The translations under genes and the position numbers were made by a program. Shown here piece by piece: positions 37,480-62,869 of a stretch of DNA of 64,000 nt; the first letter of the stretch is position 1; every line of letters begins with the position of its first letter. The notes below the pieces were generated by a model. The model ran no database searches, was not told where the DNA came from, and worked only from the letters and a program-made list of their open reading frames with translations. The stretch lies in the NCBI GenBank assembly GCA_963971425.1, contig OZ020514.1:40399158-40463157 (forward strand). The letters are read 5' to 3'. This DNA comes from Bryoerythrophyllum caledonicum. Taxonomy: Eukaryota > Streptophyta > Bryopsida > Pottiales > Pottiaceae.

Positions 37480-38740
37480 TGGCCACTACCATAATTGTTT
37501 GTGTGAATAAAATCGTTGATTGTGTGCTTGGACAAAGAAAACCTTTCATTGTTAAAAAAAATAATCGTGGCTTATTTTTAAAAATGCTTTGTGTATGTAG
37601 AAAAAAAACCCCTTTGCCTGCTTGCTTGTTCTTTTTAGGCGATAGCATATGTTATATCAAATCCAACTTAAGGAATTTAATGTTTTTCCAATGAAAATTG
37701 AATTAGATATGACTTTCCAATTGAGCCGGTGGTAACGAGATATAAGTTGTATGGATTTACCCCCATTTGTAAAGGCTTTGGAATAAATATGTGGCAATAA
37801 AATGAAAATAATATGTTTGTGAATGTAAAAATTAAATTACCTTTGCTTGTGTGTAAAAAAACAAAAACAAAGTGTCTGTCATTGTATTTTAACAACAATG
37901 ATTAAATACCTTTTCTGAAAAGAAAAACACTATGCATATTACAATTTTTTCGTCATGGCAATATTAAGAATTAGCAAATCCAACCAAAGTAATTTCATAT
38001 TATTTCAATAAAAATTGAATTAGTTATGAACTTTCAATTGAGACGGTGGTAATATGATGTAAATGGTATGGATTTATCCCAAAATTTTAGGCTTTGGAAT
38101 AATTAGATAGCACTCTTGAGTGATGACCCATGATAGTAAATTTCAGGGCCATCTGGATAGGGTTTACGGGTCTAGGATTTAGGATCAAGGGTTTCAAGTC
38201 TAGGATATAGAGTCGATGTTTTAGGGTCCAGGGTTTAGCGTCCAGGGTTTTGAGTCCAGGATTAAGGGATGAGAATTTGGATTGAGGGTTTTGAGTCCAG
38301 GGTTTAATGTCTATGGTTTTGCGTCCAAGGTTTATGGTTTGAGAATTCTAGGGTTCAAAAATGCTTGGACTATCGTGTTTTTCTTTACAGAAATTTTCCT
38401 TTGTCTGAAATTTAAATGATTTATTTTCGAAGTTGAATCGCAATTATATTAGATCCTATAACTAGAACACAAAAAGATCAGCCACTACCTTTGTTTGTGC
38501 CTTTACAAAAAGTTCTTGTTGTTTGTGTAATGGTGCTTGAAAGAAAATAACATTTGCTTGCTTAATCCGTGTTTGAAATAAAAAAACGCCTTTGGTTGTA
38601 AAATTAACAAAAAAAACCAAATATCGCTTTGGAAACATACATTGGATGATGAGTATTAGCCTAAGGTACAGAGAAGGAAGGGGGTTGGATATACCCGAAC
38701 TGATTCGGCTTTGGAATAATAAAATAAAAAATATCATTGA
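37480..38740. repeat. Degenerate long tandem repeat
   Basis: The segment TTGAATTAGATATGACTTTC (37,698) with the following GGTGGTAA and TGTATGGATTTACCCC is repeated as TTGAATTAGTTATGAACTTT (38,017) with GGTGGTAA and GGTATGGATTTATCCC, and both end in GGCTTTGGAATAA. The ending recurs near 38,706. The part GCCACTACC...TTGTTTGTG at 37,482 recurs at 38,480. Units are diverged and of unequal length. No gene lies here. Confidence 0.5.
38150..38360. repeat. Telomere-like degenerate repeat, GGGTCCAGGGTTT type
   Basis: About a dozen units of 13-15 bp such as GGTTTAGCGTCCAGGGTTTT and GAGTCCAGGGTTTAATGTC. The AGGGTTT core equals the plant telomere heptamer, but most units carry an extra GTCCAG, so this is a minisatellite related to or convergent with telomeric repeats rather than a telomere. 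Confidence 0.6.
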
Positions 38741-38799
38741 TTGGATCAATGTCCTTGAAAATAAAGAATTTGGATTGTTGACAAATATAGCCTTTTCTA

Positions 38800-39990
38800 G
38801 TGTCAATTGAAAAAGCACATGTTTTAACCCCATTAAGGCCTGTGACAATTTCACACTACAAACTCTTCAAAATTGTTGATTCTAGTACAGTGAGTGAGGA
38901 AGGAAATAAAACCATATATTCTCTACTTTGACCAAAGGGATCTCTATAAAGACTTATTGTGTTTCATCTTCACAAAATTTCATACTCTTTGACCGCAGAG
39001 ATAGAAAGATTATAGTATTTGAAGTCAAGAAAATGGTTCATTTTCTTCCCTGCATTGACTAAATCAGCAGTCTTTGACTTCACTTGGTATCAATCTTTTG
39101 CATTACAGAAGGTCTTAATCTTTTTCCACTGTGTTAAACATGATTTTAGTTCCGTATACACCAATTTGTAGAAGTAGAGAAGACGTGAAGCATAATCAAA
39201 ACAAGTGTGCAAGGAGTGAAGGAATAACAACTGTCAATTCACAATCTATTTCTTTGAGAATTAAATATATTTTAGATGATAATCAAAATTGTCAATAAGA
39301 AGGTTTACACCACATATTGTTGTAGAAAAAATAGAAAGTAAAAAATATGAAGATCTCTAGGTTTTATGCGGAAAAGATGAAGTTTTTTTTCTCGCTTGCA
39401 CGAAAAGTGTAAAAATGTTTGACTTGAGTTAAAATGTTTTTCTACACTAAAGACGAGAATTTTTTTTGACGACTTCAAATAACATAATATTCTCTACATG
39501 TATGTAAAATCTCAATGTTAATTGAGACTTCTAGCAAAATTTCTAAGCTGCCTAGAGTCCCCATTTCTAACCGTAAGTAGTACTGACTTTCAAACCATGA
39601 ATCTAAAAATAATAATAAAAAAATCTCCATGGAGCTCTTACCAAAGAGAATCTAGTATAAGAGTTTAAGGAAAAAATACTTTTTGTCTAATTTTTGGAAC
39701 TTGGCCAAAATCCAAAACGTATGCCCCACGTACACTTTGGCCTTAAGGGATTAATTTCTTTCCACCAATTTTTTAAAATATAAAAGTAATGCATGGTCTG
39801 CATGACGAGTACTATGCATTTTTGGATTATGGATTTCACGTAATGTCATGAGTATCTACTTATATTTAAGTCCATTCAATTTATTTACTGGCTCATCATT
39901 TGAATAGGTATTTCTCACTACCATTAGTAAGCGCAAGACGTCAGTTTTAGCCAACAACAATCAAAGGATAGTCTATCCTCCCTCTCACTT
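38800..39990. other. AT-rich spacer
   Basis: No coding block, RNA gene or repeat is supported in this interval. Confidence 0.5.
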
Positions 39991-39994
39991 GCCA

Positions 39995-40470
39995 CGCACA
40001 CCTTCCTCTTTCCCATTTACATTCTTAAATTCTCCTCCCTTGCTCGAGCTCGCCATAGCTGATTTTCGCGGCCATCCTCTTCGCCATAGATGTTTTTCAC
40101 TGTCATAGCTATTTGTCGCTGTCATCCACTTCGCATTTGGTCTTTATCTTTGTCTTTTTTTTGTGTTTGCTCTTTAGTTTTTCTTCTTTCTGGGTTCGCT
40201 GTCCTTTTATCTTTGAGCCTTCATCATCGTGATCCTTGTGCTCGCTTACGTATTTACTAGAGAGCGCTACGTAGGAGAAGAAGAGTGACTAGAAGTTGCA
40301 CTAGTAAGGCGCAATGAAGAGGTGCGTATGGGTGGAAGGAGGAGCAATCAAGTGCGATCTTGTGTGATCTACTTTCAGCTTTAAAGTAAGCACTGTGATT
40401 TTCTTGAAGCTAGTATGTAGTAAATACCGTCTAGACTTGGTGAAAAGGTATGTTAAATTTTCCATTTCTC
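39995..40470 (+). promoter_or_regulatory. Putative 5' leader of a spliced gene (pyrimidine-rich)
   Basis: A marked C/T-rich stretch (40,000-40,240) is followed by a purine-rich transcribed-like segment and two donor-like sites (TTTAAAGTAAGC near 40,384 and AAAAGGTATGTT near 40,448). This resembles a plant 5' untranslated region with introns. It lies 0.9 kb before the first clear exon of the relic at 41.3-43.2 kb in the same orientation. No TATA box can be singled out with confidence. Confidence 0.25.
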
Positions 40471-40857
40471 TTTCAAAACTATGTTAGTTGATTGGTTAGG
40501 ATTAAGTGAAGTCCTATTAGGTTTCACTCAGTTCATTTTAAGGAAATTGCCTAGGTTTTTCTTAGATTTTATTAAGTCGATGGCTTGCATGCAGCAAATT
40601 TGCAAGCCGTCCAGATAAACTGAGAAGGAGTGTTGAAATTTTGAATTTTGGTCAATACTTTGTAAGTTGAATTGTTAAAATGAAGTGAACTGCTTTTAGA
40701 TTTCTCTAAGTTCATTCTAAAAAAAATGCTTTGGTTTCTCCTAGATTGAATCTTTAGATGGTTTCAAAGTTTAGTGTTTAAGATTTGTTATTTGAATCTC
40801 AAATCATCATTTATGAGAGAACCTTATGAATCACATTTATATTCCATTGAACTACGG

Positions 40858-41240
40858 AGGCATGTAATCCACGAGGATGGTAGTGCTCCAAATCGCCACG
40901 TACGGATACAAAGCCGGCCGGATCACTTCGTGGGGATTAGGAGTGCGCCCAATCTTTGAGTTGAGATTGGAGCGCACCTAATTTTCCATTGGACATCATA
41001 TGTTATTTTGATCTCCTAATGATGATTCAAAGTGCGCTCGATTCTCCACGAGATCGACCACGCCCGATTTTCCCCAGAATTGATTGCGTCCTAGATCTCT
41101 CATTGGAAAACATCTGTGTGCCAGATATTATTGTAGAGATCGTGAGTGGGTCTAGACTCCTAGTAAAGATTGGAAGAGCATGCAATCCCCAATTTGATCA
41201 GGAGCAACCACGTTGTCTTGTTTGTGATCAGGTATGCTCT
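40858..41240. repeat. GATTGGG...CCCAATC minisatellite (block 3)
   Basis: Units GATTAGGAGTGCGCCCAATC (40,936), GAGATTGGAGCGCACCTAAT (40,963), CAAAGTGCGCTCGATTCTCC (41,028) and GATTGGAAGAGCATGCAATC recur with irregular spacing. It is more degenerate than the block at 36.0 kb. It lies between the putative leader and the exons of the relic that follows. Confidence 0.6.
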
Positions 41241-41326
41241 TGATCTCTCAATGTCTTGATTTCAAATTTCAGTTTCAAAAATGAGTGACTAGTTCTCAAT
41301 TCCCTTGTATTTTGTCATTTATTGCA

Positions 41327-43170
41327 GAGCTAACCCTGAAGCATTAAAGAATGTGCGGAAGAAGTTGCTCTCGGTGAAGCTTAAATCTAGGATCAATTGT
41401 AGATTTTTCACAATGCCGTGCGAGGGAGATCAAGAATTACAGCCTATTGCCTTTTTCCTTGCCAACCTAATCAAGGAAAGGGATTGGAATTGGAGAAGGA
41501 AGAGGCTTATGGAGGAACATTTGTCCTACTAGTCATCACGATTGAGGACAAGTAACAGAGAAACAACAATCATGTTTATAACCGACAAATGAATGTCAAG
41601 TGCTCAGACTTTACCAAATTCATCCGGAAGATCACCTCCTTGCAATCGTCACCAAATTTGTTGCGTGAGCAAACGCTGCTAAAATGTTTGGTATAGTTCT
41701 ATCCACTGTGCAATTGAATCAATTGCTTTGCAAGAATGTAGAGGAGTTGGGATTCTTTCTCATTGGTGGCAGTGTTGACCTACAGAACTTGCGTGATATC
41801 AAGGCTGAGTTGAGGGTAGGTCTCATTGCCATAAATGCCTGTGAAGTACGCCAGTGAGATACGGCTAACGCCGATCACCTCACCAAAGCAAAAGAGAGTT
41901 GCACCGGGTGATGGTCCGGTGTGGTAGAGGAAACGATTATGAAGAAGTCGATGAGGAAGAAACCCTTTGCCAAAACGGCTGACGGTTTGACATTGGCCAA
42001 AGTAGTGAACCTTATCCACTCCGGTATTGTAAACTATTTTTCAAAGGAGCTACTACAGTTGCGTGACTTTTTTCAAATAGGGTTTGCCCTACTACACATA
42101 TTTGGCAAGCGCCCATTCAAGATCAAGGACAAACCAAATGAATTGGACGTCCTCATTGACATGGATCGCTTGCAGAGGGCGCCGACATCAACAATTGTGT
42201 ATCGGTATCTTTTACTAGTCGTGAATTAAAGCTTTAATCACAAAGAAGAGGACAATTCCTACCTTTTATGCAGTGCCGCAACATGTCTTTGAGATGCCAA
42301 TACGGGGACCTCCAACTTGAGTTGGTGAATCAAATACAAAAGACAAAACTCTAGAATTCTTTGAAGAAGAGCCAAGACGGAATGATATCAACATGAATAC
42401 ACACTTCTATATTATCAAAGGCCAACATGGTGTCGCAACTTACAAACAACTCCTTGCAAAAGCTAGTCGCAACAAGCGCGACGCCGCAAGTACTCGTGAG
42501 TATTTTGTCACGATCTTGTGGACCAAGAAAGAGTCGTGTAACCAGCTAATATACTTTAGCAAGTGTTGAACCGAGTCCTTACTGGTACTTGGAAGGAGGG
42601 CAATTATTTTAATCAGATGCAAATAGCTCGGAGGTGTTGGAATGAGCTTGGCAATTTGTTGCCCAAACAAAATGGTGCCTTGAACCCCAAGGAATTTAAT
42701 GTAAGTTGTACTTTGCCTTCCAGAAACTTGTGGTTCATAATTTCCCTTACAGTCTAACAATTCTTTCAATTCAATGTTTTTGCTTTACCTCAGGATTGGG
42801 TGTTCACCTGGTCTTTTCCCTTGATCAACTCTCCTAAGTGCTTCTCATCCTTTCAGGCGTTTGCAAAGAAATAGAATGCATGTTTCTTCAAAAACAAACC
42901 AAGTACTTTGGATCTGGATAAAGGCGATAGGGTGCCAAAATTGTTGTTGCTGTACGGTCCGAATACTCTCTTCCAACAATGAGTCTTAATTGAGGAATTG
43001 TACATCAACAACATACTTCTCAATCCGTGGAACAATTTTGTTGGAGTCCTTTTTGTGAGAGTTGATGACAATGATGACGATGGATCAACTTTGATATCGA
43101 CAGCATCAAAGACTTGCGTGTCGTGCACAACCGCAACGTGCCAAGATAACATTGTGCTAATCAGGTGAGG
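41327..43170 (+). pseudogene. Spliced gene relic with ParB-like GQH motif (tentative)
   Basis: Exon 1 begins at 41,327 after an acceptor ATTTATTGCAG and reads ANPEALKNVRKKLLSVKLKS onward to a stop at 41,530. Later plus-strand blocks are FLIGGSVDLQNLRDIKAELR (about 41,755), KTADGLTLAKVVNLIHSGIV to LDVLIDMDRLQRAPTSTIV (41,970-42,200), HFYIIKGQHGVATYKQLL (about 42,400-42,455), and RCWNELGNLLPKQNGALNPK ending at donor AATGTAAGTTG (42,700). The intron ends at TTACCTCAG (42,794), and the next exon reads DWVFTWSFPLINSPKCFSSF and then VPKLLLLYGPNTLFQQ and ILLNPWNNFVGVLFVRVDDN. FYIIKGQH resembles the active-site segment of ParB/sulfiredoxin domains. Several stops show decay. No product can be named. 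Confidence 0.4.
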
Positions 43171-43552
43171 GCGCATAGTTAGAGAAATCCAAGGTAACAG
43201 TGGCAAACCCACCATCGTTACCCTTATTAAACAATAAAACAACATACACTTACACACTATCAACAATCTAGACTTAGGGAAAAGAAATAAATGATTCATA
43301 ACCCGATACACCAAGAAGTAGTAAGCAGTCTACACGTACCCCATTACTCGCCCCCTTGACCCGTACTGAAGCCCCTTCACACTGGCGAATCACATTGTTA
43401 TATCAACGGAATGGGGGCCGTGAATGAAAACCTCTCAAGACCATAGAAACAATGTGGTTCACATGAAGTGATGCTAAAAGACTTTATAAACAAAGGATAG
43501 GCCGGGTGCAAGTAAAGTCCCATCGTGAATCGCCTTTTACACATTTTATATG

Positions 43553-44890
43553 CTAGACTTTGTCCAGGTAGACCCTCAACGTGCTAAACACTCTTGACAA
43601 GACCATTGACCCACTGATATCTCTAAAAGAGGTGGAGTTAAGCATTCCAAATGCCATCTTAGAGAACATAAGTCTTAAATAAGCATTGTAGCTACTCGTT
43701 TTGGCACTATCACATAATCGACAACGCAATCCAGCAGAGATGTGAGAGAGTTCAGGGTGTACAACCCCATCAATGTGTAGCAAGTGGCAAGGTGCGCAAT
43801 TGCGCGTGTAATCAATCCACATCTAACCATCACCATCCTTCAACAGTAACACCCCTGAATTCTTCACCTCACAAACTCTCAAAATTACCTATCCTGCTGT
43901 CACATCCAAGGTGGTGGGCGCTGTTTGCTGCAAATATATATAGTCTCTAGGTGTGAAATGCCGCACTTGCAATCGATAACGACCTCCCCGTATTGTCGCA
44001 TAGCGCAATGTATCCCGATGTTGAAAATTGGAGAGGTTGTCCAATGCCATAGGCATCACCCTTTTGAACAAATCTGCACATTGCTCACACACTTAAGCCC
44101 ACGTGTCTGGATTGTCTATGTTAGCCAACACAATGTCAGCAACTGCTTCAATGGCCTTTAGTAAAACCGGGTGCCTTCCAATCAATGAGAATAAGCTGAA
44201 TTAGAAGCCAAGGATGCTTGTTTGCTGAACCGATAGCCCATTGCTATCCAAGGTAACTGCAAATCCCAATCCTGGATTCCTAGTGATGTCCTTTCTTCAA
44301 GCTGTACTTCCGAAGCCCCTTCTTGACGGTTTGCACCATGCGCTCCGCTAATCCATCTGCTTCAAAATGATCACTCAAAGTAGTGCAATGATCAATCATC
44401 ACCTGCTCGCAACAAACTCACCCAAGAATTCTCTACCTTGGTCTGTGAGTACCTCTGCTAGAGCTCCAAAGCGATTCAAAACACAATCAAGAAAAAAATA
44501 AGCAATTCCCTCACTAAATTTATTAGGCAATGCCACCAACTCTATCCATTTTGAGAAATGTTTGATGATCACCACAGATACTTGTTGTGTCGAGGTGTCA
44601 CTGGCAATAGTCCTCCAAAATCCAAGCTACACTTGTATTCTAAGCCCATAATTGGCAATGGTTGTAATTGTGGCATTGGAGCGTTAAAAGACACTCGCAC
44701 ACGATCACACACCATACACTTGGAAACCAATGCTTAGACTTGTGACTGCATCCCTCGCCACCAATAGTAAATTTGTAGTAAATTGTAGGTCCTCCTAATT
44801 GTCTAAGATCCTCATGTGCATGCTTGATTAGCTTCACCTCTTTGTTAGAGCCGGCACCACCTTCTTGGTATTGTTAGGCCACATCCTAAC
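43553..44890 (-). pseudogene. int: Integrase of the gypsy element
   Basis: A zinc-binding segment (VSKCMVCDRVRVSFNAPMPQ, about 44,740) precedes the catalytic core: LEYKCSLDFGGLLPVT (first D, about 44,610), ALAEVLTDQGREFLGEFV (second D, about 44,440) and DHFEADGLAERMVQT (the E, about 44,360). A C-terminal part follows, with ADLFKRVMPMALDNLSNFQH, YRLQVRHFTPRDYIYLQQ, GVLLLKDGDG and YTRNCAPCHLLHIDGVVHPE. No chromodomain is recognisable. Frame breaks occur near 44,640, 44,330 and 44,170. Integrase would insert the DNA copy into the genome. Confidence 0.8.
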
Positions 44891-44994
44891 AAAGTGAGTC
44901 CTCTCCCACACAAACGATTTGGCTCGTTGTAAGACCCGATCTCTCTCCTTAGCTCACCATGTTGACACTGCTTCTCCATCCTTTAGAAATAGCA

Positions 44995-45560
44995 TCACAT
45001 TTGTGTCTTCAAAGATGTCTTTGGCGTCCCAAACTCCTCACCTCTATCTTCATCCACTGTGGCCACAATAATTTCTTTGGTGGGATCTCTATGCATTGCC
45101 AACACTCCTAAAAACGCCGAACAATGCCACCATGGCAACAAATCGGCCTTTCCCTCACTGTGCCACCTAGCACGTGTGACATCCTCATCGTTTGGAACTG
45201 GTTTACAGCTAAGGCCGTTAGCATCCATATTCACCAACCCCGCCTTGTGAACTACCTTGGAGCAATAATCCATCAACATCAAGGCCCACCGCGTTTGTTT
45301 CTTTGATAGCTTGTCAGTTTCCATCAACCACTTCAACAATTGATGTTCTGTCACCAACAAAAACTCGTTACCATGAAGATATCATTTGAAATGAGCAATT
45401 GTCCATGTGGCAGCCAAACACTCTCCTTCATACGAGCTATACTCAGCCTCCACATTGTTGTTGGACCGACTGGCGTACGCAATCACGAACTCCTTCCCAT
45501 CGTCATCCATTTGCGTTAACACCGCGCCAATTCCCAACGCGCTCCAATCTGTGTGTAGCT
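44995..45560 (-). pseudogene. pol: RNase H region of the gypsy element
   Basis: The frame reads GIGAVLTQMDDDGKEFVIAY, ASRSNNNVEAEYSSYEGECL, AATWTIAHFK, one stop, YLHGNEFLLVTEHQLLKWL, MDYCSKVVHKAGLVNMDANG and LSCKPV. This matches the usual gypsy RNase H order (ASR...E..Y...E.E..A......F..YL.G..F...TDH..L). TEH stands where TDH is typical, which removes one catalytic acid. The domain degrades the RNA strand of the RNA-DNA hybrid. Confidence 0.8.
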
Positions 45561-45599
45561 GGTAAGTCCTCCTTGCTACTTGCCTTCAAAGTATTTATG

Positions 45600-46500
45600 T
45601 TGATGCCAAACGTTCTTCAATTGTTGAAAGGCCGTCTCACTTTCATCTCACCACATCCAAGGTTGATCATTCTTTGTCAACATGGTCAATGGCTTTGCAA
45701 GAGCATTGAAAGTCTTTACAAACTTTCTATAATAGTTATACAACCTCAAAAATATCCGTAGCCTACTAACATCTTGTGGTCTACAAATAGACATCACCAC
45801 TTCCACCTTACTAGCTACCACACCCAATCCGCTGGATAAATCATGTAACCTAAATACTCGATACGATCAAAGAAGAATTTGCACTTACCAAGGTGGATTT
45901 CAAACCGTGGGGTCTTAATCTAGTAATTACCTCCATCAAGTGTAGTCTATGCTGCCTTTGATTCTTGCTAAAGATAATCATATCATCGATGTAGCATCTC
46001 GCAAAGTCCAAGCCCGAGAAAACCCGGTCCAAAACCCTCTGGCATTCTTCAATTCAAATGGCAAGAACTTCCACTGGAACAACCGATTCTTCCCATTTTT
46101 AGCAATGCTCCAGAACGCAATCTTCTCCTTGTCCTCATCTTTTAGTCCTATCTGGTGGTATCTTAAGTATAAATCCAACGTACTAAATACCCTGGCATGA
46201 CCAATGGCCTCAAAATTCTCCTCCGGAATTGGCATGGCATAACGATCTGACTTAGTGAATTTATTAATCCTCGTATAATCACCTCACATCCTTTATTTAG
46301 TCCAATTATCATAGATATCCTTCTTATATGGCATAATCGTTGCCGATGTATACTCACAATCTGGTGGAGCCAATTATACTAGCCTACAACCACCAATTAT
46401 TCTGTACGAGCGCGAATCAATCTTTGTTCCACATTGCTATACTTGTATGGCTTCCAATAAATAGGTACTTCATCTATCAAGTTAATACATACCTCTTGTC
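45600..46500 (-). pseudogene. pol: Reverse transcriptase of the gypsy element
   Basis: The lead-in (IYWKPYKYSNVEQRLIRART, about 46,460) is followed by RISMIIGLNKG, MPIPEENFEAIGHARVFSTL, DLYLRYHQIGLKDEDKEKIA (46,235-46,120) and FQWKFLPFELKNA. After a frame change comes the polymerase core ARCYIDDMIIFSKN (about 46,000), with both aspartates of the YxDD box present. Together these are the fingers and palm of a Ty3/gypsy reverse transcriptase. Frame breaks near 46,300 and 46,000 make it non-functional. It follows the methyltransferase after a linker of about 650 bp with acidic and charged sequence (MFMNEQSAFLMEEIGKLCEL). Confidence 0.85.
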
Positions 46501-47179
46501 CCTTCAACACTCCCAAATCATGCAAACTAAATGGAGAGCAATCCATATACTCCTTGAAAAACTCCTATTCCTCTACTTCTACTCCTCCATCTGCCAGGCC
46601 AACTATGGGTTTTCAAGTTTCCTTGGTCACCTCCTCCAACGGTTCCTTTGGAGCAGGCTTCTTCACCTTTGGTTGCTATTGAATGCCAACTGGAAAAGAT
46701 TCATCTTCTCCCACACCCATCATGCTTCCAAGTCCCTCCAACTCGCAAAGCTTGCCAATTTCCTCCATCAGAAAGGCCGACTGTTCGTTCATAAACATCT
46801 TCACCACAACCTTCTCCAAATCCATCCTCTTCTGAGCCAATCTCACTCCTTAGTGAAGATCCTTTGCCATGGGCATTGCAAAAATATCTGCCGTATCCCA
46901 CATGTTCAATGGATGAAGTGCCAAGGCCCTCTCACCTCCAACTACTTTGCTTGTCACCTTCACAGAGGCAAGTGGTTTCCTGCCGCTCAAAACTCATAAT
47001 AGCCCATGTAACCAATCAAGCTAGAAGCTAAACGCTTTTGCTTGGCAATTACTAACGATACAATTCAAGTCAAGCAATTTAAATCCATGGCCTGACCAAG
47101 TAATAATCGGCGTTGTGGCTATGAAATCCCAGGCAAATCGGTGGTGCCAGTGGGAAAGTCCATGGCTGTCTCCGTCTTA

Positions 47180-48300
47180 TCTAGTTAGGCTCCACCATCT
47201 TCTGTGACTATGAATCCCATACAAGCTCTGGTCCATTATCCTTGAAAGCATGAGACCATGCAAACTTAACCAACGCGGGCAAGGCCCTATGTGGTTTTCC
47301 CTTTTGATTAACCACCGCCGGGGGTGCCTGGTAATTGTGATACACGCACCGTGGTGTCTTGTAAGGATCCTGAATTTCACTCACATACACATCCGGCCAT
47401 TAAATGCGACCCATCGCGGATTGTAGCAACTCTGCCAGTGCAAGGTTTGTCTACCGCAAGCGTGGTCGATGTGCTCTTGACCCCACTGCAGCTGCATCGG
47501 TTAATACTGGAAAATCCATGATCCGAGGGATGCGGTGCATACTTTCCAATGTCCCGGACCTCAAATTGCGTACCACCGACAAATTTTCCACAATATAACA
47601 CGACGGTTGCTTTTGAGAAGTCTCAAGCAAACGTAGCAGTGAAATCATGTCGTAGAGACTGGAAGAACGAGAGTCCTTCAACCCGTTCTGATTGCTTGCC
47701 ATAGATATGCCTTGGCAAGGCCACCTTGCAATGACAAGGTTTTCATGACCCACATGTTGAATGTCATTGACTGATAGCAAGGAAATATCATCCACAAGTG
47801 TAGAAAAGGAAGTTTTTATGGCACTAGTGGCCAATAATTTTGAGAATTGTGTTCTCAATCTCTATGACTCTCGTTTGGCCACATGCCTTGTTGCTTCATC
47901 CACATCCATGTAGACGTAGCGCTTGACTTTGATCATGCTTGTAAAACAATTGCCAATCTTGTGCCAATGCCTCCTAAAAGCTCCAATAACATGATGCCAT
48001 CCGTTGGTGCGTTCCAATGGATGGTAGACATGTCCAAAGGAGGCCCTAGGTCTTGCTCAACTCCGGGCCTGTGTTGCATTTGTGGTAGCATAGAATGTTG
48101 CCATGCTTCTTCCATTGCTAAGTCTGCGGCTTCCCTCAACAAGATGGCGTTGTTCCATGCTGCTTTGATCCCAGGTCGATATCCTTCTGCCTCTCAATCA
48201 CTCGTGTTGCCCATATGGACATCCACTCCCTTTGAAGGGTGGGTAGCTATAATAGAATCTTCAAAACCTGCCTCCAACCATGAATATTCCATATACATAG
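47180..48300 (-). pseudogene. Retrotransposon-borne cytosine-5 DNA methyltransferase, copy 2
   Basis: Motifs appear in canonical C5-methyltransferase order: motif I LLELLGGIGTRLAIVL (about 47,990-47,945), motif II IKVKRYVYMDVDE, motif IV ENLVIARWPCQGISMA with the catalytic cysteine codon at 47,715-47,717, motif VI CYIVENL with glutamate at 47,586-47,588, motif VIII-like AAAVGSRAHRPRLR, then a recognition region (PPAVVNQKGKPHRALPAL, AFKDNGPELVWDS). Order and sequence feel closest to DNMT3/DRM rather than DNMT1 or chromomethylases. A one-base deletion near 47,932 splits motifs I and II, and TAG replaces a likely tryptophan after RPRLR. The domain would methylate cytosine, perhaps at new element copies. 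Its neighbours are protease upstream and reverse transcriptase downstream. Confidence 0.85.
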
Positions 48301-48405
48301 ATCTAGAGAACGCAAATCCATTAGCCAGGTTACTAGTAAAAACTCAAACAAATCAAGCTGGCAGCTGAGCCATTCGTCCATTGGATACAGCACCGCCGAG
48401 CCCAC

Positions 48406-48786
48406 CTAGACATCATATGACTTGGCCTCCGTGACTATTGCCTTCACCTTCATCGAATTTGCATCCGCCACATCACCTTGACTGAGTTGCAACACCAACT
48501 CAGTTCTTGTGATGCATGTAGCGTGCTCTGTATCCCCCATCGATGTGATAATTTTCGATGGACATTTCTCCAAAGTATCCCCAATCAAATCCAACCTTTC
48601 AATAGCGGATGCTTTGAGCATCAAAGGTTGAGCTCTTGAATCCAAAAGCACACGTTGAGGTAGAAAAATCCTCCCCTTAGGCCCAACAAGTTTGAAAATA
48701 TCTAAAAAATTGTGAACTACCACCTCACCAGGTGTGATGGATGACCTCTTGATCGTAGGTCTGTCGGCCATTTTTTTCACACGCAT
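48406..48786 (-). pseudogene. pro: Aspartic protease of the gypsy element
   Basis: A frame of 126 codons includes RVLLDSRAQPLMLKASAIER, the retropepsin-type active-site strand. The usual DSG or DTG is here DSR, a change expected to cripple the enzyme. It would cut the polyprotein. It lies between gag and the methyltransferase, separated from the latter by about 120 bp of sequence with frame changes. The upstream frame at 49,032-48,820 (LWKQQPQFCEAYLIFTKVL) probably belongs to the gag-protease linker. Confidence 0.7.
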
Positions 48787-49103
48787 GGCTGCTGAAAACA
48801 GCCTTTTTACATTGATACTCTAGCTCTCCTCTGCCTCTACCTCGATCACCTCTATTTTCAACACATTGACATCCGTGGAGTTGCACAACACACACATTGA
48901 GGCCGCCAATTTGAAAACCTCTGCCACGCCAAAGCCATAATGTGACAACACTTTAGTAAAAATCAAATAAGCTTCACAAAACTGAGGTTGCTGCTTCCAT
49001 AATCGCCTTATGAACTCCCGTTTTTCCTCCAACTAGCGGTTAGGATTGTTTGAGTGTCGCCACCGATTGTTGTTGAGGCACCGTGGACAACGTGGGCACC
49101 ATC

Positions 49104-51422
49104 TTACCAACGTAAAGGACTCAACCAACCATGCTTGCCAGTTATCCTTTCCATGCTAAGGATCCAGAGTTGGACTAGCTCCACCTGAAACCTCCTTGGA
49201 AAGTGTGACTCGCTTCTTCTGACGGCATAGGCCTCCCTTAAGGCATCCTTAATGGCAAGTGCCAAGCCACTCAACATAGAGTCTCCAAATTCATCATCCA
49301 CAAAACTAAAGCCACCCCAACATGAAAACAAGGAGTTACATGAAAATTGCCATCTTTCACGGTAGTATTGACACTCATTGGTTTGATCTTTGCCTCCAAT
49401 TCCGCAAACTTTGCCTTCCAACTTTTTTTTTTCCCTCCAATGGCCTAAGGCTCCTTCTCCTTGCCTCCTACTTTGGCTCTCTTGCTCGAGAAAGGCTTCA
49501 ACTCAAAATGAAGCTTCCAATAATTGGCCTTTACATACCCTTTGGCACCACAACCAGAGCGGAAACCTCTTGCATGAGGTGTGGAAGTCTTACCTTCCTT
49601 ACAATCTTTTCTCTAATGACATGGCTTCCTACACTTGAAGCACAAGGCACCCAGTCAGCGATATAGGAAGGAACAACTACCGTGACCACCTTAACCTTCT
49701 CTGGGACCTTCTCTTTACGTTTGAGAAATTCCATGGCTGCCTTTTTTTCTAGTAAATTGATTCCAATCCGCTTCGAGGTTTCAAAAACAAATTGTAGTGT
49801 AGTAGGCACCTCCAATCGCAATGCCTCATTGCAAACCAAAGTCTTCAATTCCTTGTCCAAGACATCTTACCAATGTTGCACTGCCTATTGTTTTGTAACT
49901 CCGTGACTGGCTGAAATTAGTCTCCTTAGCTTGGCGGGAGCCTCTCTCACTGACTCGTCACCTCCATGTACAAAGGAACAAAGGGCCTTCATCTTATCCG
50001 CCCTTTGCTTTTTATAGTCTCTGTTGAGTCGCATAAAGAACCTAGCTGTGGGATTAAATGGAGGTGGATGGTTTACCATCTCCCCTGGTTGCATCGTCTC
50101 CTCTACAGTGCTCGTGCCTTCCTCTATCTTCTTCTTAGAGAAGAGTGGTGGTGTCACCGTCAATGCTCCATCAAATACGTCCAAGTAGTTTGGTGCGTTG
50201 AAATCTCTCTAGGCCATAATTTTTGGAAGATGAGCCTCCTCAAATTCTCCATAATCTGCTAGTGGAGCCCCCTCAAAACACCCAAACAATGCCCTCCAAA
50301 CCATGTATGGATTGAAGTTGGGATTACGGGACTTCTGAAGTTCACACCACATGGTGAACTCCCTCTTGAAGTCATCGACTGCGATGGTGCCCATAGCATC
50401 CAAAAATCTTAGTACCCCTCGTACTCCACTTCCATATGATAAAGCCATGTCTTCCCAATCAAAATATGATTGTTGTGACCTCCTGAGCAAATATGGTGCT
50501 ATAATATCCACCTCACGCTTGTCAAAGAGTTCTTCCTCTTCCACCAATGGTAAGACCAGATCTTCTACCTCTTCCGGGTGAGGGACAATCTCTTCCAACA
50601 CCTTATCTTGAACACCTATCGCAAAGGTGGTGTTTCTCCAAGTGAAACTAGGCCCCTTCCACGTATCCAAGTTGGGAATGAAGAGATTCACTCAAAGAAG
50701 CCCCATGCTTCATAGGTGCCCTTGATCTCTGGTGCGTAGAGAGTAGACGACACTTCCCGGTCGAGCAATTCCAAGGTAAGCGTGTGCCACACACTGTTAG
50801 CCCATTTCCTCCAAGTGCCTACCTTCCACTGCCACGTGGTGTGAAACAAAAAGCCTTCACTCTCAAACTCAGTGAAAATCAGGGAAAATGGGGGTAGTTT
50901 GATACTTCCAGCAAAAGCTTCTACCTCTACAATGGATCTCGACCCCGAATGTGTCAAAACAACCGCCCTACCACGTATCACCAAGTCCTGAACATCCACT
51001 TCACCTCGAGCACAAAACAAAAGTGCAAGAATACCCTCCTTCATCCTAAGTGCCCAAATCTTACAAACTCCACTAAGTGTGGTCCAGTACTTCACAGATT
51101 CCACAGTTAAGACCTTGGTGCCACATTTGTGCAAATCCTGGGAGCCCATGCAAGACTTGGCTATGGAAGAGGGCTTAAAGTCCCCGCCACTACAACTTGC
51201 CTTGGAGTGAGAGCCTTTCACTTGTAGGCTTTGCAAACACGAGATCAAGGTGTCCAACACCTCCCCACTAATTTCCACCTTTGATACACTAGCCTCCTTC
51301 GATTCCTTAGTCTTACCTCTTCCATCCATGGTCAAGGTTGTTCTGGCGTTCGTCCGTACGGTAGTGTCCGTCTGTCCGGTTGTCCGTCTAATAAAGGTTG
51401 TTGTCTGACCGATAAGGGTCAA
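49104..51422 (-). pseudogene. gag: gag of gypsy-methyltransferase element, with zinc knuckle
   Basis: A 244-codon frame from 51,422 holds a long N-terminal region (EISGEVLDTLISCLQSLQVK). A frameshift near 50,690 leads to the core, FKREFTMWCELQKSRNPNF and PYMVWRALFGCFEGAPL (to 50,209), followed after one stop by RRLISASHGV (about 49,900). A zinc knuckle CFKCRKPCH..KDC with one stop inside reads at about 49,650-49,605. The last part has an acidic DDEFGDSM block at about 49,290. Gag would form virus-like particles and bind RNA through the knuckle. Frame changes near 50,690, 49,880 and 49,430 break it. Confidence 0.75.
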
Positions 51423-51504
51423 CGCAAGTTTGACAAAGTCACAAGGTAAATCAGTTTATCCTTTGCCACGAAGGCAACTACGTGGCTGACACATAGACTA
51501 GAGA

Positions 51505-53215
51505 TTACGCGCGTACTAAGAAGGGGCGTGCGCGTGAAGGCGTGGGCACATACTGTTCGAGCAATCTAAGTTCAAAAATAGGTCGAGCGCGTATCCAAAG
51601 GGGTCGGACGCATACCTGAAAGGTCGCGCACGTTCCTAAAGAGGCCGGACGCGAACCTAATGGGGCGGGGTACGTACCTAAAGGGCGGAGGGCGTATTTA
51701 AAGGGTTGGGCGCATACCTAAATGGTCATGCACGTATCTAAAGGGGCCATACGGGTACATACAAACGTTGGGCGCGTACAATTTTAATTTTTAATTTTTA
51801 ATTTTCTTTGTACGTGCCCAGCCCTTGTACGCATGCGCCCAACCTTTTGGATCGAGCGCGTATGAACAAGGGTTGGGCGCGTATGCCCAAAACAAAATTT
51901 AAAAAATAGTTTTGTACTTGCCTTGCCCTTAGAAGCATGCGCTTGACCTTTCAATTCAGGCGCGTATGTACAAGGGCTTGGTAGGTACACCCAAAAAATA
52001 AAATTAAAAAAATTAAAATTTTGGGCGTATGCGCCCACCCTTGTACGTACGTGCCTTGCCCCTTGAGGTACATGCCCGGCCCCTTGAGGTACGCGTTCAA
52101 TCCCTTTAGAGACGCGCACGACCCCTTTAGGGACGCGCCCAACCCCTTTACGGACACGCCCGACTCCTTTAGGGACTCGCGTGATTCCTTTCGGAACACA
52201 AGTGACCCCTTTAGCAATGTGCCTGACCCCTTTAAGTATGCCCCCTACCCCTTTAAGTACGCGCCCAACCCTTTTAAGTTCGCACCCAATCTTTTTGAGT
52301 ATGCGCCCTACCTTTTTAGGTAACCACAAAACCTCTTTAGATACGCGCCCAACTCTTTTAAGTATAGGCACAACCCTTGTAAGCATGCGCCTAATTTTTT
52401 GGATGGGGCGCATATGTACAGGGGTTACGGGCGTGCAATTTTTGTTTTGTTTTAGGTATGTGCCTAGCACTTCTAAGCATGCGCCTGATCTTTTGGATCG
52501 GGCGCATACTTGCAAGGGCTGGGCGCATGCACCAAAATTTATTTATTTATTTATATACTTGGACGCGCCCAGCTTTTGTACGTATGCGCCCAGTTTTTGT
52601 ACGTACGCGCCCGGCCCTTTTGAGGAACACGCTCAACCCCTTTAAGTACGCGCCCGACCCTTTTCAGTACGTACGCGCCCGGCCCTTTTGAGGAACACGC
52701 TCAACCCATTTAAGTACGCGCCCGACCCTTTTCAGTACGCGCCCGACCCTTTTCAGTACGCGCCCGGCCCCTTTAGGTACACGCTATTTCCCATTTCATA
52801 CACGCCGAACCCTTTCAGGTACGCGCTTGACCCCTTCAAGTACGCGCCCGACCCTTTTTATTACGCGCTCGACTCCTTTAGGTACTCGCCCAACCCCTTT
52901 TAATACGCGCACGATCTCCATTTAGCAAATGCGCCCACCCCCCAGCACACGCCCGACAAAATGGGTACGCGTGCGAGATTATGGGGCTAGCAATCGAAGG
53001 AGGATCGCACAATAAAGGGTCAAGCCCACAAGTTGCAGGGTCGCGCGTGCGAGCTCTTGAGGGCCGCACACTCTTTTAAGTTTTTTAATTGAATCTTTTA
53101 TAAAATTTGAGTATAAGCGCCTCTACTACACGCGCGACCCTCCACCGTACGTGCGCAACCCTCAAATTGGCAAACTCGACTCTCTAGTGTGCGATCCTTT
53201 TTGAATTGCTTGCCC
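51505..53215. repeat. GC-rich 21-bp satellite in two orientations with hairpin units
   Basis: The consensus unit is ACGCGCCCGACCCCTTTAGG plus T. From about 52,020 to 52,930 dozens of units run in this orientation; from 51,505 to 51,770 they run as reverse complement (AAAGGGGTCGGACGCATACC). The two arms face each other across a centre rich in A/T tracts. Four longer units (near 51,815, 51,920, 52,375 and 52,475) contain a self-complementary core such as AAGCATGCGCCTGATCTTTT followed by GGATCGGGCGCATAC. At 52,603-52,740 a block of about 70 bp is duplicated almost exactly. All long frames over this region are repeat artefacts. Confidence 0.9.
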
Positions 53216-54540
53216 CATAATCCCACCCTTCTTTCTTCCCTCCCTTTTCACTGACTCCCCTCACTCCTTGTGTATTCGCCCGCTCTTCTTTTGTAGTGAC
53301 CCGCCCCTCTTACAAAGTTGCATGCCTCCTTGGACACTTATTAATCTCCTTTGCATACATATCCATACTCAACACGAATACAACTCGTCCTCTACTATTT
53401 TGTGTTTTTAAATTCTTTAATCTCGTTGAATTCTTGCTAGTGCCATAATGAAGATGTGGACCATGTATAAGCCTCTTTCCTTCTTGTGCCCACCTTTCTT
53501 AAGCTCTTGTCCACCCCTTATGTGTATAATGTTGATTCCTTTTCACCTATATCATCTATTGTCTTTCTTTGATTAAAAGTGTCGTCATTAATTTTTATTG
53601 ATTTCAAAGATTGTCAAGGTGTGTGTATTTTTTATTTACTTTTGGCAATTATTTACACAAAATCATTTATACTTGGCCATAGGCTACGACCTTTTTAATT
53701 GAGAAGGGCTGCAACAGTTGTTCATGTAATAATTGAATCAAATATTGTAAATGCCATTATAGACTCTAATTTCTTTTTATCCATAGAATGTGTCATGTAT
53801 TCTTGCTTTTTTATTAAGCCAATTGACACAAACTTAATTGTAATGATACTAAGAAGAAGGTGAGGCGTTCATATGTTTCATATGTTTCTACTTTTCACAA
53901 TTTTATCATCTCCGACAGAGGATGAAATTGTGAAAAGTCAACGAGGTTTTATCCAACCACCCCACATGAATTTACCTTCCATCACTTGTTCTTGATCTTA
54001 TCCACAAGTTTCATCCATTCTAGCCAAGCATACTTGAAGTTTTGCAACAACGGATCCGCACAAACAACATAGTTCTAAAAACACCCTATACACAAGATTT
54101 TGAGGGTTTTAAGTGTTAAAAATCATCTAAGACCACTCATATCAAAGTGGTCATCTTTCTCAAGTAAGAAGCAAAATGAAACCCACTTGTAAACATACAA
54201 CAAAGTCAAATCAATGCCATTCTTAAAGAATAATAGCAAAATAACAATGAAGCTAATGAAGTGCACACACGCATACACTCCCTCACTCCATCACGTTGGA
54301 GACTCAACTTGAGAAAGATGAGTCTCCTTCAACTATATGTGGAGGTCATTTGGACTCTTAGTCCCAAATGAGGTGTCAAAAGACACCACCAATGCCCTAA
54401 AAGTCAAAAGACTCTAAAACTAACTCTCATTATCAACTAGAGCTAGAATCTAGGTCTTCTCTTGGCCGCGTAACCTCCTAGTTGGCTTACAACACATAAA
54501 TCAACCTCCGTAGATTCTCCAACGCGCTGAACCTGACATG
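53216..54540. other. Spacer with one hairpin
   Basis: No gene recognised. At 53,891-53,937 the arms CTTTTCACAATTTTATCATC and GATGAAATTGTGAAAAG can pair around a 10-nt loop. The rest is AT-rich unique-looking sequence. Confidence 0.5.
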
Positions 54541-54544
54541 CGCT

Positions 54545-54870
54545 TGAAAGCTGGCAAAAAACAGCAAGTCCCAAGCGTTGACAAAGTTCAATCTACGGGA
54601 TCCGTATGGGTTGACAGACAAAGAGTGTTAAAGATGGCCAACATGTTGATGTAGAAAGAAATTTCCGTGAAATCCTCTAAGGGACAAAAGAAGCTTGTTG
54701 ATTCCAAAAGTCTCAAAGACCTCTGCTTCATTGAGAAGATGTTGAGAGTGTTGAAGAACAAGCTCATGCACAACTTTGAGGAGAAGCCGCTTCCATAGTA
54801 GACAGTAGAAGAACCATTGTTGCAAGTCGTCGGGTTAGTATTCCTCAAGAAGTCACTCAATTGTCATTAA
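54545..54870 (+). pseudogene. Lysine-rich plus-strand coding relic, unknown
   Basis: The plus strand reads GKKQQVPSVDKVQSTGSVWV, then KEISVKSSKGQKKLVDSKSL, then KDLCFIEKMLRVLKNKLMHN and EEPLLQVVGLVFLKKSLN, with three stops in about 108 codons. The lysine-rich, hydrophilic composition is protein-like; the minus frame over the same DNA (cysteine, serine and phenylalanine rich) looks like its shadow, but this is not certain. No family recognised. LTR-like sequence follows at once. Confidence 0.25.
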
Positions 54871-54884
54871 ATGCTTTCAAAGTG

Positions 54885-55700
54885 AACCGCTTCGGTGTCG
54901 TTCCCACATAGACTTATTGTTTTAATTTTAATGAACTACAAAAACTAAACTACCAAACATTACTCCGTAGGTTAGCTTTTCAACTCATTCTTTTACTCAA
55001 CATCCAGATCCTTCCGAATTCTAGACTTCTTATAATAGCTTTCGGAACTAATTTTTGACCAACTGGAAGGGAGTTTTATTTATCTCTGTTCCTCCCCAGA
55101 GAATCTTTGGGACGATTTAAACGAGTGACCGGAAGGCCACTGATCATGTTGGTGTAAGTGGCCGGATTTCCCACTGTCTTGTGTCTTAAAGTAGATAGAC
55201 ATCCACTGCCTCGTATCTTAAAGTGGCGAGATACCCACTCTCTCTACTCCGCTAACAAGTGGACAGTTATTGTTGCTAGATCCACACCCTCACAGCATCC
55301 AGATGGCTATCTGGACGCGGTCACGCAGAGGCGAATTCGGACAAAACGACATTATAGCGAGTACTCTGGTGGTTCTATTGAGTGAGCTTTACAGTTTGCA
55401 AAGAGAATTTCCTTCTAGACATATACATTAGGCTTTTTTTCTATCGTAGGGATAGATTCCGGCCTCAACCAGGATCTGGGTTCTCACGGAGTTTCTGTGC
55501 CCTAGAGACTACCAAGCATGCCTCTGCTATACGTTTCTTCTCCTCCTAGCTACCTTCGGACCCTGAGAGCGTCAAGCCTCTCCCTAAGCTCTTCTCTAGC
55601 TCTTCCGGGCGTTCTCCCGATGCAAGTTCCAACCGATCACCTCAAGTGCAAACACTCCAACACTTAACTTGAAAGAACTTAATCACCACACCATAAACCA
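54885..55700. other. Possible LTR or leader of the minus-strand gag-like element
   Basis: The start contains GCTTCGGTGTCGTTCCCACA, a phrase that I associate with plant retrotransposon ends. The stretch is CCGGA-rich like the pseudogene at 56.5-58.0 kb and unlike the AT-rich flank before it. No second copy was found in the window to prove an LTR, so the call rests on composition and position. Confidence 0.25.
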
Positions 55701-56529
55701 CAATCATGGATCCGTTCCTCACAAGAAAACACTCAATACTACAAGGATTTTGACATGCCAAAATAGTGATAGGTTGAAAACGTTCCCAACGAGAGAAACG
55801 AGATTATGAGCTTTCTAAAACTCACCCATTAAATACAAGCTAATTTTCCTAATTTTAAATCTACCTCATTCGCAAGAAATCCAGAAAATCTTATCGTGAC
55901 ATCAAAAAGGCCCTACCTCTCAAAGTCTGATGATTCTGGGCTCAGATCCAAAATTTTTGGATATCAGACCCCGATTCATCGTCATCTAAATCCGAGGAGT
56001 CCACAAAATTCCTAACTCGAAATCCAAGTCTAACTAAGAAGTGTTCTGAGCACCCTTGAGCCTAGGGCTCCTACTCCTGGGAGACTCTACTACTTCCTTT
56101 CCGGTCGGCTTCAGTTGCTTCGACCCGGATCTAGAAACTGGTTCTAGAAGTTCATCCGGAGACTGTACATGTGCGGGTTCTCCAGTTGCACCGATCTGCT
56201 TTCCAATCAGGTCCCAAAAACTTCAACTCGGGCTTGGAGTTGCCTCCATGGGTTGCACCATTACCGATGAGGATGACCAGCGGCAAATGTCAAGAGGTGA
56301 TGCTGAGGAGAGCCAAAAGATCAGAAGTGTCTCTTGCGAGAGTGTCTCCAAAAGCAAGTTCTTCCAGGTCTTGACTGTTTCCGTATTGGGGAGAGGCATC
56401 ATGCTCCTGCTCATAGGGAGGCAAGGTTAGAGTTGCCAACGTCCCCTCCTACTACCCAGAACTCCGAGGATTTTTGGGCAGCCTATCACATCCGGAATGG
56501 TGGGGACTAATACCATAGTGGTTGGCAAT

Positions 56530-58016
56530 TAGGTAGACTTAGTTTCCCGAGTCGCTTGTGTTGGCGAAAGCAGGTTCCTCACTAGCTCCTAAATTCGCCC
56601 CAAAGTCCGCTCCATCCTCTGGCCGTGATCTAGGAGAAGTTGGATAATCTCTCTACGGTTCACCTTCCCCTCATTCTTCAGTACTTCCCTAAAGAGGAGG
56701 CTCTGGTTAACCGTGTCGATCAAAAAGCTGAGCGCCGTCCGGACTTCCATTCATGCCCGTACAGAAGCATCAACTCGCTCCTGGGCCTTCTTCCGCACTA
56801 CCACCGTGGCTGCCAAGGCTGCCTTCACCTCATCGTGCTGCTCTTGGAGTCTTGCCCGGTCCTGGATGAGTGGAGCCTGTTGGTCTTCCTACACCTTCAT
56901 CCGAATCTCGTTAGTCCGGAGCTCTTTCACTCGTAGGAGGTTGTCCACAATCTCCTTGGCTCCCACATCATGCAAGACCTCCTTGATGACCTCAATGTCG
57001 TCTACATTTGCCTGGTTAAGTAGGGCAGTCCGGTACACCGTCTGAGTGAGCAACTCGATGATATCTATTCTGGGATCTCCGGTGAGTTCCGGAAGCTCAG
57101 TCGGAGGTATCTCGTAGGTATCTCGTAGGTTGCTGTTGCCGGAAGGCACTGATCCGGATCGGTGTACTCCTCGTCCGGTTGGCTGTGCTTGGGAGGATCC
57201 GGTTCCGGCTCCGGCTCCTTCGTAACTGACCTACTCCTCTTCCGGGTGTTGGCGACTTGAGGGGAAGGTGGTCAGTCGGGTGTATTTTGATCTTCTCTGG
57301 ACTCAACTTTCGGTCCTCCATACTCTTGAATATTTAGGAGCACCTCGTAAACGTCATGTTCCGCTAGGGTGAGGACCTCATGCTTGGCATATAAACGGAT
57401 CACGTATGAGGGCAACAATGTTCCGGCTTTCTTCCCTTTCCGGAGGTTTGTGATCATTTGGTTGACCTGGTTGTTCACTAGAGTGGCCCAGTCAACCAAG
57501 AGTTTTCCCCTCACGGCGCTCAGAAATGTGCATGCCCAATTGGAAACCACCCTCTTTGGCTTTTTTGGATGGAAGATGGGGTTCAAAAACCCTACTACTA
57601 GCCGAGCATGGGGGTCGTGAAGGTCGTTCGTGTTGTATCCGTCCTTCGGTCGGCATTCCGAAAGAAATCCCTTCTAGCAATTCGTCTTTTCGCTCTACTA
57701 GCTCCACTTCCCCGTCTCGGAAGTTTAAGGTTCGCTGCCATTCCAACTCAACCTAGTGCTCCGGATGTGCTTTGAGGCTGCGATCGGACTGGTTGTCCAG
57801 ACTACCCATAAGTTTCGTAACTACGGGCTCGTCCTTGATCCCTTAGGCCACCTACATCAGACCGACGCACCCCATCATCTCCAGGTAGTTTGCTAAAACC
57901 TTGATGTCCTCCTCCTCCGCTGGGTAGGCCGACATCACCTTCTGTATGGTTGGAGCTCTAGCGGTGGCACTAGAGGTTTTCAGATTCTTAGTAGCTCGGT
58001 CCTCTGCTCCTACCAT
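56530..58016 (-). pseudogene. Gag-like coiled-coil protein relic (unknown element)
   Basis: From an ATG at 58,016 the minus strand reads MVGAEDRATKNLKTSSATAR, a short helical part (EEEDIKVLANYLEMMG), three isolated stops, then LEWQRTLNFRDGEVELVERK. A frameshift near 57,660 leads to YNTNDLHDPHARLVVGFLNP, the basic block HPKKPKRVVSNWACTFLSAV, and VNQMITNLRKGKKAGTLLPS followed by YVIRLYAKHEVLTL. A proline/glutamate-rich linker (TKEPEPEPDPPKHSQPDEE) and a long coiled coil (IIELLTQTVYRTALLNQANV to EIIQLLLDHGQRMERTL) end near 56,600. The plan (helical domain, basic block, linker, coiled coil) suits a retrotransposon gag, but no zinc knuckle or polymerase is seen, so the assignment is open. Confidence 0.4.
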
Positions 58017-58129
58017 GATGCCGGACTAGCTACTGAAAACCTTCTCTAATTCCTGTAGGCTATTATCACAAAAGCTCTTACTATCGAAGTACTTCCGATC
58101 AAAATATAGCAATAGACGGTTGGAGGTGA

Positions 58130-61956: not shown

Positions 61957-61959
61957 GGA

Positions 61960-62828: not shown

Positions 62829-62869
62829 TGTGCACTAGTGCACCTCAATCACTCAAATGAGTCATTTTT

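Follow-up and report, generated by a model that had tools for sequence, protein, structure and literature searches.

A DNMT3-type DNA methyltransferase domain within the remains of a gypsy-order retrotransposon in Bryoerythrophyllum caledonicum

Hosts rely heavily on cytosine methylation to keep transposons in check; the locus described here raises the question of whether a plant retrotransposon carries a cytosine methyltransferase of its own and, if so, what it would use it for. The window, i.e., the whole 64,000-nucleotide stretch of Bryoerythrophyllum caledonicum DNA that was analyzed (contig OZ020514.1, positions 40,399,158 to 40,463,157), had been described in an earlier note as encoding a C5 DNA methyltransferase inside a gypsy polyprotein, between protease and reverse transcriptase (RT) on the same strand. 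Our analysis bore this out. The Pfam model PF00145 (DNA_methylase) matched the minus strand above cut-off (largest piece 47454-47861, E = 4e-6, 26.9 bits, cut-off 22), so that the significant match on which the earlier note had staked its reading does lie within 47.2-48.3 kb. A profile of our own, built from relatives that had themselves been found with the window piece, matched the same domain with E = 1.5e-48 and gave no match at E ≤ 0.01 when the window was shuffled 20 times by dinucleotide blocks; its pieces span profile positions 2-314 of 319, with gaps (e.g., 184-204). The range first given, 47180 to 48300, is slightly off, as the domain extends from 47068 to 48001 (Table 1); the stretch above 48001 is the linker between protease and methyltransferase (DNMT). 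Downstream on the same strand lie Pfam RVT_1, RT_RNaseH, and rve pieces arranged as in gypsy elements, and the protease lies on the other side of the domain; the earlier note had likewise placed the domain between protease and RT. The domain is thus almost certainly a component of a gypsy-order retrotransposon polyprotein.

The earlier note had called the enzyme DNMT3/DRM-like; the first half of that label stands and the second does not. By profile comparison with solved structures, METHYLTRANSFERASE is of the DNMT3 type and not of the DRM type: DNMT3A scored 71.7 bits, as compared to 31.4 for 4onj (entry title only "DNA methyltransferase", which we take to be a tobacco DRM), 31.4 for HaeIII, 26.9 for HhaI, and 23.7 for DRM2. 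We favor DNMT3 over DRM because DNMT3A aligns in order over motifs I-VIII and then, in a second, weak stretch (5.4 bits, ERERAMGFP), over IX/X, while alignment to the DRM chains is confined to the first part of the profile; the motif numbers are those that we presume for the aligned blocks. In a single frame of one relative (P0047), motif I lies ahead of IV, VI, VIII, and IX/X, unlike the rearranged order of DRM. Judged by these alignments, the enzyme is of the DNMT3 type with motifs I-X in ordinary order, and a DRM origin was rejected on both motif order and structure scores. AlphaFold models presented a pLDDT of 47 for P0047 (15 alignment rows) and of 76.2, with a pTM of 0.80, for a 313-aa domain from a genomic copy (L001; 41 rows).

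The domain belongs to a whole element, copy B, of the form A-coding-B, in which A and B denote terminal repeats; the parts of a young genomic copy, from repeat A through ORF0, ORF1, and ORF2 to repeat B, match it in order at 72-83% DNA identity. Its ends read CCTGACA at 54538 and TGTCGTG at 43119. ORF0 is presumed to encode the N-terminal part of gag, and a Pfam scan of the ORF0 of the young copy gave no match; the gag zinc knuckles of ORF1 are present in relatives. The protease motif reads LLDSRAQ in copy B as compared to LLDSGAQ in relatives, in which the Pfam aspartyl protease match is weak and under cut-off. RVT_1 matched two pieces on the minus strand, 45853-46053 (E = 5.4e-6) and, weakly, 45981-46283 (E = 0.0029). 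Translation of the methyltransferase domain gives the catalytic and motif residues PCQ, ENL, and LLGGIG; because this domain is frame-broken, copy B is dead, and the minus strand of 43-51.5 kb presents short broken frames only. Compared to an open copy, the DNMT has acquired two frameshifting indels and five stop codons, the rest of ORF1 11 and 17, and ORF2 16 and 17, respectively; CpG cytosines have turned to T somewhat more often than other cytosines (23% vs. 15%). Copy B is therefore a complete but dead LTR-type element of gypsy order. Its leader contains a 21-bp tandem repeat at 51.8-52.96 kb, and past its first 187 bases presented no alignment to the leader of the young copy.

Table 1. 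Coordinates of element features in the window (DNMT, cytosine methyltransferase; C2, young genomic copy used for comparison).
Feature	Position	Strand	Basis
Copy A, truncated second element, gag to DNMT	2170-5213	+	62-71% to copy B
Copy B, whole element, form A-coding-B	43119-54538	-	Parts of young copy align in order
Target-site duplication TGCG, one side	43115-43118	.	Flank comparison
Terminal repeat B	43118-43348	-	83% over 234 columns vs. young C2 copy
ORF2 remains: RT, RNase H, integrase, PHD finger region	43579-46675	-	Alignment to C2 copy (see text)
Integrase core part	44402-44626	-	rve 5.6e-5, under cut-off
RNase H part	44998-45381	-	RT_RNaseH 2.9e-7, above cut-off
Reverse transcriptase, YIDD	45853-46283	-	Two RVT_1 pieces, both under cut-off
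In-frame TAG separating ORF1 and ORF2, context CAA-TAG-CAA-CCA	46676-46678	-	
ORF1 remains: gag, protease, DNMT	46679-50708	-	77-81% DNA identity to open young ORF1s
DNMT3-type cytosine methyltransferase domain, broken	47068-48001	-	Six profile pieces
Protease region, LLDSRAQ	48409-48819	-	Translation; resembles P0050/P0049 by eye
ORF0, presumed N-terminal gag	50691-51333	-	72% DNA identity to young copy
Terminal repeat A	54165-54538	-	81% over 374 columns vs. A of young C2 copy
Target-site duplication TGCG, opposite side	54539-54542	.	Flank comparison

The earlier note had passed over the death of this copy, the stop codon between DNMT and RT, and a second copy at 2.2-5.2 kb. In a self-comparison of the window, this copy A matched copy B from gag to DNMT (2170-5185), with no match to the RT part of copy B beyond about 5186; its DNMT was recovered as four profile pieces at 4443-5213 on the plus strand (weakest E = 0.22). 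A 255-bp stretch at 2877-3131 recurs at 63363-63616 with 84% identity and, as the alignment of copy A has a gap there, is probably an insertion in copy A. Other repeats were also seen in the window. A Tc1/mariner-type transposase, a type unusual in land plants, lies in two frames at 16332-17336 on the minus strand (DDE_3 1.7e-17, HTH_Tnp_Tc3_2 1.3e-14); another old repeat is represented by two stretches (22790-25819 and 32533-35505) that are 65-70% alike, the first of which includes a DUF7869 match (23657-24070); and copia-like remains were recognized by eye at 59806-62834 on the minus strand, with SH3_retrovirus and weak rve_3 matches at 60278-61210.

A search of the B. caledonicum genome (437,360,962 bp, 894 contigs) with P0047 as query yielded 79 scored matches out of 2432 first-look candidates, 69-72% identical to the query; all 79 reach its residues 1-546 or fall at most four short, and 37 (counted by eye) are without internal stop. 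All copies examined came through DNMT-containing queries, so that they sample the DNMT-bearing part of the family, beside which siblings lacking the domain may exist. A young copy (C2:18.87M) encodes an ORF0 of 216 aa, an ORF1 of 1371 aa, a stop, and an open ORF2 of 1041 aa, to which ORF2 of copy B is 81% identical over 3133 columns. In the 1270-aa part of its ORF1 that was scanned, Pfam matched zf-CCHC (3.2e-5), a weak protease below cut-off (0.0022), and PF00145 (5.8e-14, 52.7 bits); its ORF2 matched RVT_1 (5.6e-32), RT_RNaseH (8.5e-35), an integrase zinc domain (3e-15), rve (3.5e-13), and PHD (2.3e-9). This is the Ty3/gypsy order of protease, RT, RNase H, and an rve-type integrase, with the protease weak and below cut-off. 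ORF0 (L009:5561-6208) and ORF1 (6190-9999) share 19 bases, with ORF0 in the -1 frame, and ORF0 may be joined to gag through a frameshift or have a separate start. Just past this copy, what is left of another, more distant element with a DNMT was seen by eye (L010:7701-9994). Several distant clades share the genome: the DNMTs of L043 and L046 are 49-50% identical to that of the main clade, with L045 near them, and the DNMT of L044 is 54% identical to the main clade and 88% identical to a metagenome protein (P0101).

Comparison of window positions 38000-44300 with 50600-60000 identified no ordinary LTRs, because the repeats of this family are split into A and B. Instead of the like direct LTRs at both ends that characterize Ty3/gypsy elements, genomic copies begin with A on the 5′ side and close with B-A-B, or B, on the 3′ side. 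Among 13 copies, the 3′ repeats were BAB in eight and a single B in two, one copy of another subfamily presented at least BABABA, and two had no 3′ repeat within the stretch fetched. In three of the four copies first fetched, the A repeats were 100, 99.7, and 99.5% identical to each other within a copy, and the B repeats 99.2, 100, and 98.7%; the fourth (C1:30.82M) is without a second A. With ends defined as TGTCAGG and CACGACA, all nine copies with both outer ends (13 examined) were flanked by a 4-bp target duplication, and none of the nine by a 5-base duplication; the count leaves out C9:22.32M, where the junction was internal, and three copies without one end. Copy B closes with a single B and is flanked by TGCG at either end. 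DIRS elements carry a tyrosine recombinase and leave no target duplication, whereas these elements encode an rve integrase and leave 4-bp duplications, and no recombinase model gave a match in the frames of the C2 copy scanned with Pfam. The inner B/A junction of a C6 copy reads GCACGACA-GC-TGTCAGG, suggesting that the A/B arrangement would arise if LTR units (LTR = B+A), joined in a circle or in tandem, were opened at this palindrome.

The coding regions of these copies clearly presented evidence for constraint on the enzyme, as estimated from codon comparisons. For L047 vs. L040, dN/dS was 0.04 in the DNMT (dN 0.070, dS 1.67), 0.05 in ORF2, i.e., RT to integrase (dS 0.85), and 0.13 in gag-protease (dS 1.24), ratios that are rough, as dS between subfamilies is near saturation and unequal over the domains of one pair. 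Because dS differs between domains within this pair, recombination is possible. Within subfamilies, DNMT dN/dS was 0.23 and 0.13, and for L043 vs. L046 it was 0.14; one close pair presented a dS of 0 and a dN of 0.006. Between the two dead window copies, dN/dS was 0.34 in both the DNMT (244 codons) and gag/protease (248 codons), values that may be lowered by protein-similarity anchoring, as codons were aligned via tblastn to a relative; the domain was therefore constrained before the copies died. Purifying selection would mean that a successful transposon keeps a methyltransferase of de novo type under selection about as strict as that on its polymerase.

Taken together, the window quite probably holds a dead copy of a DNMT-carrying family whose Gag-protease-DNMT product would be packaged and would methylate cDNA. 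Read from the sequences, the family has the domain order gag-protease-DNMT-(UAG)-RT-RNase H-integrase-PHD, young open copies, split A-coding-(BA)n-B repeats, and TG...CA ends with 4-bp target duplications, with purifying selection on the enzyme. In the proposed mechanism, the UAG would stop most ribosomes to give a Gag-protease-DNMT product, and a minority would read through it and add RT and integrase. The DNMT, made at the gag level, would be packaged in the particle and would methylate the new double-stranded cDNA prior to insertion by the integrase; the pre-methylated copy would then arrive marked like host heterochromatin, or escape a check on unmethylated DNA, and the PHD finger may steer insertion to certain chromatin. 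That cDNA methylation is the role for which the DNMT was selected is a reading that we hold with reserve. De Mendoza et al. 2018 (PMC5890265) made the same proposal for DIRS elements and report de novo CG methylation in yeast by both SymbioDIRS-Dnmt3 enzymes. It is conceivable, if somewhat doubtful, that the DNMT instead acts on genomic element DNA, thus lessening harm to the host, or on RNA, or serves for binding only. De Mendoza et al. 2018 (PMC5890265) consider both a benefit to the host and methylation of RNA, and describe KnitGypsy-Dnmt3, the nearest enzyme, and SymbioLINE-Dnmt as giving no methylation in yeast, a negative that they treat with caution because human DNMT3B also failed there; a role in binding only is at odds with the catalytic residues, which are largely kept among alignment rows without a gap at the site (PCQ in 96/111, ENV in 106/122). 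Motif I among such rows reads LFGGIG in 39 of 77 and LFGGIS in 11.

If readthrough at the UAG works, the DNMT would be as abundant as gag, and RT-integrase would be made in smaller amounts. TAG followed by CAA closes ORF1 in 12 of 13 loci inspected, parting gag-protease-DNMT from the RT frame; these loci are related copies rather than independent events, and most had been chosen for open frames near 1360-1371 aa and hence lean toward copies with the stop. The context is CAA-TAG-CAA-CCA in eight loci, TAG-CAA-CTA in one, and TAG-CAA-TCA in one, so that the full UAG-CARYYA is found in 10/13; two loci have TAG-CAA-CGA, which is not CARYYA, and L042 has lost the UAG, its frame being open through. 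In the unselected list, two of 79 open frames are longer than 1371 aa, i.e., run past the UAG. A count of the codon at this position over the loci collected (18 TAG and three others once each) is set aside, as it includes overlapping loci with frames unchecked. In plant viruses such as tobamoviruses, UAG-CARYYA serves as the type I readthrough signal and lies in the replicase gene of these RNA viruses (PMC5382211, available text). The UAG-CAA between DNMT and RT is thus likely to be a readthrough signal, as judged from its sequence context. It is unlikely that the UAG is instead a true end, with ORF2 translated from its own mRNA or after reinitiation: two loci (L044 and L048) have no frame of at least 300 aa directly after the UAG, as such expression would allow, but ORF2 begins in frame at the very next codon in 10/13 loci, and UAG-CAA is kept between clades that share about 50% identity in the DNMT.

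Relatives of the enzyme were found well beyond this genome. A search with a 136-aa window piece identified 46 proteins at E ≤ 0.001 among 70 candidates, mostly from JGI metagenomes, the closest with up to 70% identity over 99% of the query; a padded query added five longer proteins. One protein (P0050) holds zinc knuckles, an LLDSGAQ protease, and the start of the DNMT in one frame, and P0047 the protease end and the whole DNMT. The profile search scored at least 561 proteins at E ≤ 0.01 among 8000, and the 120 matches listed include proteins from Marchantia polymorpha (P0102, P0128, P0131, and P0153), Calypogeia fissa (P0074 and P0093), and Sphagnum troendelagicum (P0109 and P0118). The Marchantia models read gag-protease-DNMT by eye, with a Pfam DNMT match in 4/4 and gag weak in one (E = 0.018). 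Databases name the Marchantia relatives hypothetical or uncharacterized, and one Sphagnum relative DNA (cytosine-5-)-methyltransferase. The best match in the B. caledonicum genome to a S. troendelagicum copy was 55% identical, a comparison between different element clades. For Marchantia, Schmid et al. 2018 (PMC5784723) count five DNA methyltransferases (MET, two CMT, and two DRM); the available main text does not use the term DNMT3. Given bryophyte relatives of this kind, DNMT counts in bryophyte genomes may include transposon proteins. In a tree of 53 rows (46 of 152 with enough columns, four shorter, two window pieces, and one human outgroup), the window pieces group with P0056, P0058, P0070, and P0085 (99/95), both on long branches; the rows include no host plant DNMT3, and the tree fits one capture as well as several. 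One protein filed under a bacterial MAG (P0097; Candidatus Obscuribacterales) groups with the plant-type element clade and is probably a plant sequence in a bacterial bin. A viral or prokaryotic origin was unsupported: pattern scans and tblastn with P0008 found no relative in viral_contigs or genome_contigs, and the window piece found none among phages, searches that reach close relatives only.

De Mendoza et al. 2018 (PMC5890265) is the only detailed report on such elements that we found in the open PMC literature, as distinct from subscription papers and preprints; the available text of PMC12344493 again places DNMT3 members in streptophyte and dinoflagellate retrotransposons, and that of PMC11105155 and PMC8616336 holds nothing on DNMT-bearing elements. 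The parallel that the earlier note drew with the elements of de Mendoza et al. is apt. Their text describes KnitGypsy-Dnmt3 as having the repeat structure of DIRS elements, A-coding-B-A-B, with Gypsy domains (PMC5890265), and the elements described here present the same combination of Gypsy domains, Dnmt3, and DIRS-like repeats. By comparison with this published description rather than with Klebsormidium sequence, we favor a lineage shared with KnitGypsy-Dnmt3, because the Gypsy domain set, the Dnmt3 type, and the A-coding-B-A-B repeats match. Separate acquisition of DNMT3 by the bryophyte elements and KnitGypsy-Dnmt3 appears rather improbable: de Mendoza et al. 2018 (PMC5890265) do call capture recurrent, but superfamily, non-rearranged Dnmt3 type, and the unusual repeats are the same, and the linker between protease and DNMT looks homologous (partly by eye) in metagenome, Marchantia, and Calypogeia sequences. 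That a host DNMT3 gene or retrocopy adjoins an unrelated gypsy element, or that a gypsy element inserted into a host gene, in either case with no fusion, is extremely improbable and was rejected since open fused copies exist: a lone broken copy could mislead, and the database name of the Sphagnum relative would suit a host gene, but the arrangement is repeated in two window copies and 79 scored genomic matches, with open frames that include the protease inside repeats with target duplications.

We tentatively suggest that these elements represent an old gypsy lineage of non-vascular plants, self-methylating and with permuted ends, in which the DNMT lies on the gag side, upstream of a leaky UAG, and would be produced for each particle, and the cDNA would integrate from an intermediate, either circular or tandem, that opens at the palindromic B/A junction (GACAGCTGTC) rather than from ordinary LTR ends. 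With relatives in liverworts and Sphagnum, land plants would join the algal and dinoflagellate hosts of DNMT-carrying retrotransposons, and bryophytes, including Marchantia, would offer experimentally handled hosts for testing the purpose of the enzyme.

Among known systems, animal DNMT3A/B are the closest solved structures and share the motif order but are host genes outside any polyprotein; the moss P. patens likewise has a host DNMT3 that is not in a polyprotein (PMC10952607, available text), likened here by name only. SymbioDIRS-Dnmt3 and SymbioLINE-Dnmt of Symbiodinium are also retrotransposons with cytosine DNMTs, but differ in being DIRS elements with a tyrosine recombinase or LINEs, in dinoflagellate hosts (PMC5890265). 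Compared to KnitGypsy-Dnmt3, the elements described here occur in other hosts, with several clades in one genome, and they present a DNMT before a conserved UAG, variable BA units, 4-bp duplications, and a PHD finger, on which the available KnitGypsy-Dnmt3 text (PMC5890265) is silent. KnitGypsy-Dnmt3 of Klebsormidium nitens is nevertheless alike in its Gypsy domains, non-rearranged Dnmt3, DIRS-like repeats, and polyprotein (PMC5890265), and both show evidence for purifying selection, with a Ka/Ks < 0.2 reported for KnitGypsy-Dnmt3 (PMC5890265) and a DNMT dN/dS of 0.04-0.23 here.
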